This document shows positions 10,518 to 14,804 of a DNA stretch of 64,000 nucleotides, piece after piece. The notes under the pieces are model-generated. The model searched no databases, had not been told where the DNA came from, and was given only the letters and a program-made list of their open reading frames with translations. The translations under genes were made by a program, and so were the position numbers. Position 1 is the stretch's first letter. The number at the start of each line of letters is the position of its first letter. Origin of the DNA: Methylobacterium variabile (GTDB lineage Bacteria; Pseudomonadota; Alphaproteobacteria; Rhizobiales; Beijerinckiaceae); the NCBI RefSeq assembly GCF_001043975.1, contig NZ_LABY01000178.1, forward strand, positions 1-64,000. The letters run 5' to 3'.

Positions 10518-10561
10518 AGTGATACGACGTCCGGAAGCGATCTTCCAGACGTCGTATCACT
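10518..10561. terminator. long hairpin overlapping the kinase stop codon
   Basis: Arms AGTGATACGACGTC and GACGTCGTATCACT (14 bp) continue, after one mismatch, into a GGAAG/CTTCC stem with a 4-nt loop. It lies between convergent genes and contains the stop codon of the sensor kinase (10557-10559). There is no T-run on either strand, so it may be a bidirectional terminator or a dispersed repeat. Confidence 0.5.
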
Positions 10562-13500
10562 CCGCCGCCGCCCGCTGCCCCCGCCACTGGGTCAGCAGCG
10601 CCCGGAGGGCGGCCGGCTTGATCGGCTTGCTGAGCACCTGGATCCGCTGCGCGCTCGCGGCGTCGCGCACGGCCGGGGAGCGGTCGGCGGTCAGCAGCAC
10701 CGCCGGGATGTCGGCGGAGAGGGCCGCCCGCAAGCCGGCGATCAGGTCGAGGCCAGTGCCCTGGTCGAGGTGATAGTCGGCCACGATCACGTCCGGGCGA
10801 AGCGAGCCGCCGAGCACCAGGGCGAGGGCCTCGCTGAGCGACCCGGCGGTATGGAGCGCGCAGCCCCAGCTGCCGACGAGCACCCGCATCCCGTCGACGA
10901 TCGCCGGCTCGTTGTCGACCGCGAGCACGGTGAGGCCGGCGAGCGGCACGGTGGCCGGACGCGGCGCCTCGCCCTGCGTCTCGAGAGCGGGCCGCAACGG
11001 GGCGCTCGGCACCGCGACCGAGAAGGCCGAGCCGCGGCCGGGCCGCGAGACCAGGGTCACCGGATGGTCGAGGAGGCGCGCGGTCCGATCGACGATCGAC
11101 AGGCCGAGGCCGAGGCCGCGGGCGACCCGCGCGCCCTGGTCGAGGCGCTGGAACTCCCGGAAGACCAGCTTCTGCTGCGCGGCCGGGATGCCGAGGCCGG
11201 TGTCGCAGACCATCAGCACCACCCGCTCGCCGCGCCGGCGCGCGCCGACCAGCACCCGTCCCTGCGGCGTGTACTTGATCGCGTTCGAGACCAGGTTGTG
11301 CAGCAGCCGGCGCAGGAGCTGCCGGTCCGAGCGCAGGGCGAGGGACGAGGGCATCACCGTCAGCCGCAGCCCCTTCTCCTGCGCCATCGGGCCGAACTCA
11401 CGCTGGACCTGGCGGAAGAGGTCCGAGACCCGGACGATCGAGAGCTGGGGCTTCAGCGCCCCGGTGTCAAGGCGCGAGATCTCGAGCAGCGCGGTCAGGA
11501 TCTCCTCGACGGCGTCGAGGGAGGCGTCGACGTTCTCGGCGAGGGTGGGATCGGTGCCGCGATCGCGCTCGACGAGGGCGCTGGCGTAGAGCCGCGCCGC
11601 GTTGAGGGGCTGGAGGATGTCGTGGCTGGCCGCCGCGAGAAAGCGGGTCTTCGAGGCGTTGGCCTCCTCGGCCTCGGCCTTGGCGCGGGTGAGCGCCGCG
11701 TTGAGGCGGGTCAGCTCCTCGGTGCGCTCGCGCACCCGGGTCTCGAGCTCCTCGTTGAGGCGGGTGCGGGCCTCCTCGGCGGCGACCGAGTCGGTCACGT
11801 CGGTGTAGGTCGCCACCACGCCGCCGTTCGGCAGCAGGTTTGCGCGGATCTCGATCACCCGGCCGCTCGGGTGCAGCCGCAGCCGCTGCGGCCCGGCCTC
11901 GAGCCGGAAGGCGGCGATGCGCTCGGCGACCAGGAGGTCGGCGTCCCGCGCCCCGTAGGCCCCGCGGCCGGCATTGAAGCGCACGATCGCCTCGAGGCCG
12001 ATGCCGGTCTGGATCATCTCCGGCGGCAGGTCGTACAGGTCGGCGAAGGCCCGGTTCCAGACGATCAGCTTCATGTCGCGGTCGAAGACCGTGATGCCCT
12101 GTTTGGCGTGGTCGAGCCCGTGCTGGAGGATGTCGCGGCTGTACTGGAAGGCCGCCGAGGCGTCGTCGAGGAGCTTCAGCGCCGCCTTCGGCGAGACGTT
12201 GCGCCGGCGCAGCAGCAGCGACAGGGCGAGCCGGGCGGAGGCCGCGCCGATGGCCGAGGCGAGGAGGTGCTCGGCGTGGCGCAGCTCCGGCAGGCCGGCC
12301 ACGGCCTCGTCCCGCACCGGCCCGCGCCCGTGCGCCTGCGCGAACTCCTCGAAGGCCCGCACCGCCCGCTCCTCGCCGAGGAAGCGGGCCACCGTGGCGC
12401 GCAGCTCCGCCAGGGTCACGGCGCTGCGGAACAGTCGGAAGCTCGACATGCCCGGGCCGGTCTCGTCCAGGCCGAAGGTCTGCCCGAAGGCCTCGGCCTG
12501 CAGCCGCTCGATGGCGCTCGGCGGGCGCAGGAGCGAGCCGACGACGTAGGCGAGCGTGTTGAGGGAGAGGCTCCACAGGGTGCCGTGGACGAGGCGGGGG
12601 AAGTCGTCGACGCCCATGAGCGCGGTCGGGCTCAAGGAGGTGATGCCGAACGGTCCCTCCGCGATGAGCGTGGCGGCCCAGCCGTCGCCGGTGACGAGGC
12701 TCGGCAGCAGCAGGGTGTAGAGCCAGACCGCGAACCCGACGATCAGCCCTGCGGCGGCACCGGTGCCGGTGCCCCTGCCCCAGTACAGCGCGCCGACGAA
12801 GGCCGGGCCGATCTGCGCCACCGCCGCGAAGGACAGGAGCCCGATCGAGGCGAGCGCCACCTCGCCGGCGACCTGCGAGTAGGCGTAGGCCACCAGCACC
12901 ACTGCCACGATCGCCGCACGGCGCACCGCCAGCACGTAGCCGCCGAGATCCGAGGTGCCGGGCTCGGCGCGCGGGGCGGCGCCGGCCCCGAGGTTGCGCC
13001 GCCGCAGGGCGACCGGGATGACGAGGTGGTTCGAGATCATGATCGCCACCGCGACGGATTCGACGATCACCATCGCGGTCGCCGCCGAGAGGCCGCCGAT
13101 GAAGGCCACCAGGGCGATCCCGTCGGCCCGCTCGTGCAGCGGCAGGGCGAGCACGATCATGTCGCGCTGCACCGTGCCCTCGGGAAACAGCGCCAGGCCG
13201 GCGAGCGCCAGCGGCACCACGAACAGGTTGATGAGGACGAGGTAGAGCGGGAAGGTCCAGGCCGCCCGGCCGACATCGGCGACCGCGCGGTTCTCCACCA
13301 CCGCCATGTGGAACTGGCGCGGCAGCAGCAGCACGGCGGCGGCCGAGAGCAGGGTCTGCACGATCAGGGTGGCTGGGCCGGAGGTCTGCCCGGCCAGAGC
13401 GCCGACGCCATGCACGGCGCTGGAGGCCGCCGGCAGGTCGCGCAGCATCCAGCCGACCACGAATCCGCCGACGGTGAGGAAGGCCAGGAGCTTGACGAGG

Positions 13501-14102
13501 GATTCCAGCGCCACCGCCAGGGTCAGCCCGTCCTGGTGCTCGGTGGCATCGGCGTGGCGGGTGCCGAAGGCGACCGCGAAGCCCGCCAGCACCAGGGCGA
13601 CGAACAGGCCGAGGTCGCCGAGCATGCCCGCCGGCGCGCCGACGCCGTCCGTGGCGCGCAGGAAGACCTGGAGCGAGGCCGCCACCGCCCGCAGCTGCAG
13701 GGCGATGTAGGGCACCGCGCCTACCACCGCGATCAGGCAGACCAGCGCGGCGATGCGCTCGCTCTTGCCGTAGCGGGCGGCGATGAAGTCGGCGATCGAG
13801 GTCGAGTTCTGCGCCTTGGCGATCCGCACCACCCGGGCGAGCAGCCGGTAGCCGAAACCGACCACCAGGATCGGGCCGACATAGATGGTGAGGAAGTCGA
13901 GCCCGGCGTGGCTGGCGAGCCCGACGGAGCCGAAGAAGGTCCACGAGGTGCAGTAGACCGCGAGCGACAGGGCGTAGATCGTCGGCCGCACCCGCGCGTC
14001 GCGCATCAGGGTCCGCCCGGCGACGTCGCCCCAGTGCGCGACCGCGAACAGGGCGCAGATGTAGACGAGGGCCGCCAGCACCACCGTCCAGCCCGCGATC
14101 AT
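10557..14102 (-). CDS. hybrid histidine kinase with sodium:solute-symporter sensor domain, PAS and receiver
   Basis: A 1181-residue inner-membrane sensor. Residues about 1-500 are a sodium:solute symporter (SSF) fold of about thirteen helices (VYCTSWTFFGSVG, TSIADFIAARYGKS are typical). A linker and a PAS domain (about 660-775) follow, then a coiled segment with EELETRVRERTEELTRLN, a HisKA box with His827 (AASHDILQPLNAARL), an HATPase_c domain (NAIKYTPQGR; GLGLSIV), and a C-terminal receiver with phospho-acceptor Asp1109 (VIVADYHLD). This matches NahK/CbrA-type kinases. The SSF part may transport or just sense a solute. No partner regulator is adjacent. Confidence 0.9.
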   Translation of the reverse strand: MIAGWTVVLAALVYICALFAVAHWGDVAGRTLMRDARVRPTIYALSLAVYCTSWTFFGSVGLASHAGLDFLTIYVGPILVVGFGYRLLARVVRIAKAQNSTSIADFIAARYGKSERIAALVCLIAVVGAVPYIALQLRAVAASLQVFLRATDGVGAPAGMLGDLGLFVALVLAGFAVAFGTRHADATEHQDGLTLAVALESLVKLLAFLTVGGFVVGWMLRDLPAASSAVHGVGALAGQTSGPATLIVQTLLSAAAVLLLPRQFHMAVVENRAVADVGRAAWTFPLYLVLINLFVVPLALAGLALFPEGTVQRDMIVLALPLHERADGIALVAFIGGLSAATAMVIVESVAVAIMISNHLVIPVALRRRNLGAGAAPRAEPGTSDLGGYVLAVRRAAIVAVVLVAYAYSQVAGEVALASIGLLSFAAVAQIGPAFVGALYWGRGTGTGAAAGLIVGFAVWLYTLLLPSLVTGDGWAATLIAEGPFGITSLSPTALMGVDDFPRLVHGTLWSLSLNTLAYVVGSLLRPPSAIERLQAEAFGQTFGLDETGPGMSSFRLFRSAVTLAELRATVARFLGEERAVRAFEEFAQAHGRGPVRDEAVAGLPELRHAEHLLASAIGAASARLALSLLLRRRNVSPKAALKLLDDASAAFQYSRDILQHGLDHAKQGITVFDRDMKLIVWNRAFADLYDLPPEMIQTGIGLEAIVRFNAGRGAYGARDADLLVAERIAAFRLEAGPQRLRLHPSGRVIEIRANLLPNGGVVATYTDVTDSVAAEEARTRLNEELETRVRERTEELTRLNAALTRAKAEAEEANASKTRFLAAASHDILQPLNAARLYASALVERDRGTDPTLAENVDASLDAVEEILTALLEISRLDTGALKPQLSIVRVSDLFRQVQREFGPMAQEKGLRLTVMPSSLALRSDRQLLRRLLHNLVSNAIKYTPQGRVLVGARRRGERVVLMVCDTGLGIPAAQQKLVFREFQRLDQGARVARGLGLGLSIVDRTARLLDHPVTLVSRPGRGSAFSVAVPSAPLRPALETQGEAPRPATVPLAGLTVLAVDNEPAIVDGMRVLVGSWGCALHTAGSLSEALALVLGGSLRPDVIVADYHLDQGTGLDLIAGLRAALSADIPAVLLTADRSPAVRDAASAQRIQVLSKPIKPAALRALLTQWRGQRAAAE

Positions 14103-14201: not shown

Positions 14202-14375
14202 TCAGCCGTGGCAGGCGCAGCCGGCGTGGTCGCAGCCGGCATGGTGGGGATGGCCGTCGGCGCACTCGTCGCAGCAGAAGGCCTTGCCGTCGCGCGACAC
14301 CGCCTTGGCCAGCGGCACGACGCACACGCAATCCTCGCAGGCGCACTTCACCGCCTCGACATCGACGCTGGCCAT
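14202..14375 (-). CDS. metallothionein, possible independent product from an internal start
   Basis: The same frame as the fusion, read from an internal ATG, gives MASVDVEAVKCACEDCVC and 57 residues, the normal length and start of a free bacterial metallothionein (SmtA/BmtA family, binding about four Zn2+ through Cys and His). A strong ribosome binding site precedes it at the right distance. So the locus may make both a fused regulator and free metallothionein. That both forms exist is inference. Confidence 0.55.
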   Translation of the reverse strand: MASVDVEAVKCACEDCVCVVPLAKAVSRDGKAFCCDECADGHPHHAGCDHAGCACHG

Positions 14376-14711
14376 GGCTCCGGTTCCTCTTCCTGATCCT
14401 GGTTCTCGGGCGCGCTCGTGCGGCTCGGTGAAGTGGGCGAGCATGCTGCTCAGGACGTCGCGGACGTGATCGTCGTCGATCGCGTAGGCGACGTGCCGGC
14501 CGTGCCGGACGGCCCGCAGGATGCGGGCCGTGCGCAGCAGGCGCAGATGATGCGAGGTCAGCGATTGCGAGAGGCCGAGCGCCTCGCCGATCTCGCCGAC
14601 CGTGCGGTCCGTCTCCAGGCAGGCGAGCACGATGCGCAGGCGGTTCGGCTCACCCAGGAGCCGGAAGACCTCCGCCACGTCCGCGACCTGCTCGGGCGAC
14701 GGGAGCTGCAC
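14202..14711 (-). CDS. SmtB/ArsR-type metal-sensing repressor fused to a bacterial metallothionein
   Basis: One uninterrupted reading frame joins two proteins. The first about 95 residues are a winged-helix ArsR/SmtB repressor (VFRLLGEPNRLRIVLACL; recognition helix LSQSLTSHHLRLLR). It has the complete alpha-5 zinc site D-x-H-(10)-H-x-x-E in DDHVRDVLSSMLAHFTE. After a Gly/Arg linker come 57 residues with ten Cys (CACEDCVC, FCCDEC, CDHAGCAC) and several His, a prokaryotic SmtA-type metallothionein. I chose the GTG at 14711, which follows GGGAAGG by 5 nt. An ATG at 14729 in the same frame has no ribosome binding site and lies inside the operator. It probably senses and buffers zinc (or cadmium/copper). 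Confidence 0.85.
   Translation of the reverse strand: MQLPSPEQVADVAEVFRLLGEPNRLRIVLACLETDRTVGEIGEALGLSQSLTSHHLRLLRTARILRAVRHGRHVAYAIDDDHVRDVLSSMLAHFTEPHERAREPGSGRGTGAMASVDVEAVKCACEDCVCVVPLAKAVSRDGKAFCCDECADGHPHHAGCDHAGCACHG
14385..14394 (-). promoter_or_regulatory. internal ribosome binding site for the metallothionein
   Basis: Read on the minus strand, AGGAAGAGGA ends 9 nt before the internal ATG at 14375. In the fusion frame it encodes part of the linker between the two domains, which looks like a former intergenic spacer that lost its stop codon. Confidence 0.65.
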
Positions 14712-14723
14712 GCCGCCTTCCCT

Positions 14724-14751
14724 CAACATATGAACACGTGCTCATATGTTG
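14724..14751. promoter_or_regulatory. SmtB-type operator palindrome
   Basis: A 28-bp dyad: arms CAACATATGA and TCATATGTTG around CACGTG with one mismatched pair. It carries the ATATGA..TCATAT core typical of SmtB/ArsR operators and lies 12 bp upstream of the GTG start of the SmtB-metallothionein gene. Metal-relieved autorepression is the expected control. Confidence 0.75.
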
Positions 14752-14804
14752 CTGCCGCCACGGCAGGGTGTCAAGGGTGATCGGTGCCTGTCGGTGCCGG
14801 ACGC

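Follow-up and report, generated by a model that had tools for sequence, protein, structure and literature searches.

As a rule, a repressor and the metal store that uses the same zinc are two separate proteins. In the 64,000-nucleotide stretch of Methylobacterium variabile DNA analysed here (the window), an SmtB-type repressor and a metallothionein (MT) share one open reading frame. This raises the questions of whether the fusion is genuine, how it arose, and what it would mean for metal sensing.

An SmtB-type repressor and a metallothionein in one reading frame

The initial annotation had described the locus as a repressor joined in frame to an MT, and this description stands. Positions 14202-14711 of the minus strand form a single open frame from GTG 14711 to TGA 14202 (169 codons plus stop; an alternative longer form from ATG 14729 would have 175 aa), and the one protein matches both Pfam families, HTH_5 with an E value of 5.7e-11 and Metallothio_Pro with 1.2e-17. 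The following parts were assigned.

14202..14711, minus strand: fused gene (SmtB-type repressor, linker and MT), GTG start, TGA stop, 169 aa
14424..14711, minus strand: SmtB/ArsR winged-helix domain, residues 1-96, with the alpha-5 site D80/H82/H93/E96 (Pfam, alignment; best match of the AlphaFold model SmtB 1smt)
14376..14423, minus strand: linker of 16 residues (PHERAREPGSGRGTGA), pLDDT under 50 at residues 99-117
14385..14394, minus strand: AGGAAGAGGA, Shine-Dalgarno-like stretch nine bases 5′ of the internal ATG, aligning with the stretch that precedes the MT start in relatives
14202..14375, minus strand: MT part with preserved internal ATG, 57 aa, ten Cys, closest solved structure 1jjd (E 1.3e-12)

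The repressor part exceeds the cut-offs of HTH_5 and of the NCBI ArsR/SmtB model NF033788, and SmtB is the solved structure closest to it (E 1e-16). Residues D80, H82, H93 and E96 (GTG numbering) fit the pattern D-x-H-10-H-x-x-E and do not vary across an alignment of 19 repressors, confirming the full alpha-5 zinc site that had been proposed. With its winged helix, its alpha-5 ligands and a 12-2-12 repeat near the promoter, the protein has the predicted features of an alpha-5 ArsR/SmtB metalloregulator. The proposal that a ten-Cys MT of standard length begins at the internal ATG was also borne out. The MT part starts with MASVDVE and scores 64.3 bits against Metallothio_Pro (cut-off 33); its cysteines are those of 1jjd, which we take to be SmtA, plus one. 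The His residues of DGH and GCxHxGC match 1jjd in the alignment and presumably bind Zn in SmtA, so that profile, Cys and His all agree with an MT of the SmtA type. Since relatives carry both parts as two adjacent genes, the two domains are not chance frames.

Directly downstream of the fused gene, the window encodes a hybrid histidine kinase of 1181 aa (10557-14102, minus strand) that contains PAS, HisKA, HATPase and receiver domains and is hydrophobic in its N-terminal half.

Arrangement of repressor and metallothionein genes in known systems and in the genus

SmtB/SmtA of Synechococcus PCC 7942 supplies the top-ranked solved repressor and MT, and resembles the window locus in the alpha-5 motif and in the 12-2-12 type of operator. 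Wild-type SmtB has Cys in the alpha-3 stretch, which has no counterpart in the window repressor. The window gene, lying in one frame on one strand, also differs from the smtB-smtA divergon, which consists of two divergent genes according to the available portions of PMC8790569 and PMC7387436. Separate, divergent genes had been taken as the cyanobacterial rule; this is correct for PCC 7942 but does not always hold, as repressor-MT operons are published as well (PMC8790569, accessible text). BxmR/BmtA of Oscillatoria brevis is one of the systems in which repressor and MT share an operon, as in the window, a likeness by description; the same portion of PMC8790569 gives them as two genes, whereas the window has one frame. 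The fused loci are not two-cistron operons either, since no stop lies between the domains in the window, in M. ajmalii (L087) or in M. aquaticum MA-22A (L137).

Metallothio_Pro matches were found in 71 of 111 Methylobacterium genomes at 73 places, all of which were compared with 1.5-2 kb on each side. A repressor lies directly 5′ on the same strand in 21 of these loci and was not detected in the other 52. Among the 21, the repressor and MT genes overlap in ATGA in 12 cases, are otherwise separate in seven, and are fused in two, the window and M. ajmalii. M. aquaticum MA-22A has a third fused copy, located on its plasmid pMaq22A_1p, for which the sequence is complete. A search for the domain pair in other genomes thus found it fused in M. 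ajmalii and MA-22A. The loci used for comparison were as follows.

NZ_AP014705.1, 1358490-1359026: fused copy L137 of M. aquaticum MA-22A
G000:C118, around 11231-11742: L001, second pair of the window's genome, unfused, operator core upstream
Unfused Methylobacterium repressor-MT loci (n = 19): L001, L015, L026, L027, L075-L083, L085, L088, L090, L091, L093, L097
Solitary MT loci (n = 52): L003-L014, L016-L025, L028-L031, L058-L074, L084, L086, L089, L092, L094-L096, L098, L099
Two-gene operons of other Alphaproteobacteria: L100-L103, L108-L110, L113, L138

When 19 distinct repressor-MT loci were compared with the window DNA, 14 matched on at least one flank (12 unfused loci, M. ajmalii and MA-22A) and five in the gene pair only. 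By this flank match, the 12 unfused loci are orthologous in place. Unlike the window, the two-gene operons of Methylobacterium have a stop between the genes (within an ATGA overlap in 12 of 19). The divergent cyanobacterial pair, which the initial annotation had chosen for comparison, is therefore not the appropriate comparator: in the unfused orthologues the two genes form an operon on one strand and mostly overlap, and judged by these loci such an operon is likely the ancestral state here. The fused gene of M. ajmalii is the sole MT match in its genome. The genome of the window has a second repressor-MT pair (L001) of two separate genes, with a repressor 76% identical to that of the window.

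Beyond the genus, Metallothio_Pro matches occurred in 10 of 149 genomes sampled from the family, 10 of 397 from the order, 3 of 385 from the class and 23 of 398 from the phylum (genus members included). None of the 33 extra-genus loci, eight of which are weak matches under the Pfam cut-off, showed a fusion; a separate repressor, sought by similarity to that of the window with E up to 1e-3, was found in eight of the 33. Cyanobacteria were covered in this search by one control genome. A search of 72,556 plasmid records gave two with coverage of the fused protein of 80% or more: MA-22A, where the gene is fused, and a Sphingomonas, which has two genes.

Some further observations concern these loci. 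Most Methylobacterium MT genes have neither a detected adjacent SmtB-type repressor nor such an operator in the 250 bases upstream. In L090 (G064:C1, 2128186-2132332) the N-terminus of the repressor is replaced, the operator is absent and the MT is intact, which looks like a decaying repressor. The MA-22A locus is on a 1.57-Mb replicon labelled as a plasmid, and the block may therefore sit on a second large replicon.

Start codon and candidate operator

The fused gene likely starts at GTG 14711, as all repressor-MT loci of the genus except L080 and L090 (19 of 21) have a GTG codon at this position. ATG 14729 was rejected as the start, because it is located inside the candidate operator and the conserved codon is GTG 14711. 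Two elements were assigned upstream of the GTG.

14725..14750, minus strand: 12-2-12 inverted repeat AACATATGAGCA-CG-TGTTCATATGTT, candidate operator, 26 bases, 11 of 12 arm bases paired
14769..14774, minus strand: TTGACA, -35-like hexamer 5′ of the inverted repeat

According to the part of PMC8790569 at hand, 12-2-12 repeats are bound by SmtB/ArsR repressors. A repeat as good as that of the window was obtained in none of 200 shuffles, and for 19 of the 21 loci of the genus in which a repressor precedes the MT, no more than 17 of 200 shuffles matched the best repeat. It was at chance level in L026 (52/200 shuffles) and L090 (71/200) and lay in another register in L088 and L097; outside the genus, L109 had no significant repeat (198/200 shuffles as good). 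TTGAC precedes the best 12-2-12 repeat by a gap of 16-18 bases at 16 of the 21 loci. The operator core ATGA-N8-TCAT is present upstream of the start in 19 of the 21, missing in L080 and the degenerate L090, and in 17 of the 19 unfused loci. A wider pattern including this core was not found in the 250 bases upstream of any of the 52 solitary MT loci of the genus. A strict operator pattern matched this site only in the whole genome of the window, which says little about a wider regulon because the repeat of the second pair (L001) does not fit the pattern. Since the operator-like repeat, its core and the GTG are conserved across the loci of the genus, the view of the locus as a predicted autoregulated unit is well supported.

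Two apparent origins of the fusion

In M. indicum (L033/L088), repressor and MT are in the same frame, separated by TGA and one codon before the ATG. In M. ajmalii (L032/L087) and MA-22A, CGA replaces this TGA, and by this comparison their fusion is a stop loss. The linker of MA-22A is six bases longer than that of M. ajmalii, with the frame maintained; the three fused copies have linkers of 16, 22 and 24 aa.

The linker of the window is one base out of step. Its adjacent frame reads NQDQEEEPEP, a sequence similar to those with which repressors of relatives end (NQDHEEETDP in L093). Where the relatives have ATGA, the window has ATGG. Read against these relatives, the window fusion is a one-base linker shift plus a change of ATGA to ATGG, as represented in one draft assembly. 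The change is recent or an error, because the old frame NQDQEEEPEP is still readable.

In a DNA tree of 20 of the 31 rows (11 distant or degenerate rows were left out), the fused label requires two changes. A single ancestral fusion was rejected by constraining the fused copies to one clade (p-AU 0.0012). Two changes are likewise needed in the protein tree, built from all 31 rows, although its well-supported branches alone force only one. Judged by trees and linkers, the fusion apparently has two independent origins. By alignment with the unfused relatives, the internal ATG is the ancestral MT start, and it is retained together with the Shine-Dalgarno-like stretch in all three fused copies.

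Several unfused repressors (e.g., L075, L076, L081, L082, L083 and L097) end in a His/Asp-rich tail followed by EEPEP or EEPDP. This tail is absent from the window frame; its His-rich stretch is kept as linker in M. ajmalii and MA-22A.

The internal start and predicted free metallothionein

An internal start preceded by AGGAAGAGGA at a distance of nine bases had been proposed for the MT. Its position is indeed as in the relatives, but its strength is unexceptional, as 41 of 486 frame positions and 85 of 500 shuffles equal it. Termination-reinitiation can serve to translate the second gene of a close or overlapping pair; in E. coli it drops strongly with distance (PMC10666635, in the portion available). 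In 12 unfused relatives MT translation is probably coupled, because the repressor stop overlaps the MT start in ATGA. The fusion has no stop, so that the reinitiation route would be lost and free MT would require internal initiation at the ancestral ATG. Since the stretch is located as in the relatives but many positions are as strong, we regard production of free MT from the internal ATG as moderately probable.

Constraint and predicted structure of the fused protein

In pairwise comparisons with four unfused relatives, the window had a dN/dS of 0.18-0.27 in the repressor part and 0.16-0.49 in the MT part, the loosest value (0.49) being that against L093; between M. ajmalii and M. indicum the values were 0.13 (repressor) and 0.12 (MT). 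These values cover more than the time since fusion, and by them both fused domains look constrained.

AlphaFold predicted the winged-helix domain and a small C-terminal domain with a disordered linker between them (residues 99-117, pLDDT under 50). The best model reached a mean pLDDT of 72.4, the other four lay at 55-60, and outside the repressor core the prediction is weak. The underlying alignment combined 17 repressors from unfused loci with two fused proteins, so that only the latter two inform the MT part of the model. SmtB 1smt was the first fold match (E 4.5e-08, TM 0.74 by target length, but rmsd 10.0), and CzrA was also among the matches.

Discussion

Taken together, our data partly support the earlier reading of the fused locus. 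We consider it rather probable that the locus is a metal-detoxification operon under its own control, in which the repressor is joined to a metal store; some free MT is probably made as well, by internal initiation. From the sequence we infer that both a fusion protein and free MT are produced and that sensing is altered. As long as Zn or Cd is not in excess, the dimer would occupy the operator and shut its own promoter; metal at the alpha-5 sites would release it. One transcript would then yield the repressor-MT fusion and some free MT from the ancestral internal ATG, and both would bind metal until repression is restored. In the unfused relatives, MT translation would probably be coupled to that of the repressor at ATGA. 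After fusion, a flexible linker would tether an MT to each repressor subunit. In a comparison with animal and plant MTs, bacterial MTs bound Zn with a higher affinity than even the tightest sites of the others (PMC10612145, as far as its available text goes). In the least certain step, the tethered MT may capture metal ahead of the alpha-5 site and raise the induction threshold.

It is possible, but less probable, that the genes were joined neutrally. The stop would have been lost or bypassed in a tolerant operon, repressor activity and free MT from the internal start would suffice, and the tether would do nothing. An overlapping or abutting pair is only one or two small mutations short of fusion, and linker length varies freely. 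None of the three fused copies has lost the ancestral MT start or the Shine-Dalgarno-like stretch before it. The fusion is rare (2 of 21 loci of the genus, plus MA-22A), that of the window is recent, and the window's genome retains a separate pair, so that the fusion may be a tolerated accident. Against this, it has two independent origins, and the frame was kept in M. ajmalii and MA-22A despite the difference of six linker bases, although this is a single event in near-identical loci.

A more specific proposal, which we regard as doubtful, is a one-piece sensor with a built-in buffer. The tethered MT would fill before the alpha-5 sites of the DNA-bound dimer, the operon would report saturation of the store, and the fusion would have arisen twice because the induction threshold became sharper or higher, with free MT made in parallel from the internal start.

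A sequencing or assembly error in the window, with an extra linker base making two genes look like one, is very unlikely: the fusion is seen there in one draft assembly (562 contigs), hinges on one linker base and with one base fewer would read as in the relatives' tails, but the shift site is not a homopolymer, ATGG would in that case let the repressor run past the MT start and stop inside the MT, and two other assemblies, M. ajmalii and MA-22A, one of them a complete record, carry a fusion of separate origin. A hidden stop codon, which the initial annotation had considered, is thus unlikely for these two strains, and retains a small probability for the window, with its single assembly and its one-base shift.

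The preferred reading remains that of a self-regulated operon with a metal store on its repressor. Repressor-MT operons and divergons are already known (PMC8790569 and PMC7387436, in their available portions); a repressor-MT fusion was not found described in those parts of the literature that were searched, which takes in few subscription journals. The two apparently independent cases illustrate how an overlapping operon can become a fused protein, with unfused orthologues in the same place as controls. In such a natural fusion, whether an MT hands metal to its own repressor or withholds it becomes testable via one stop codon.
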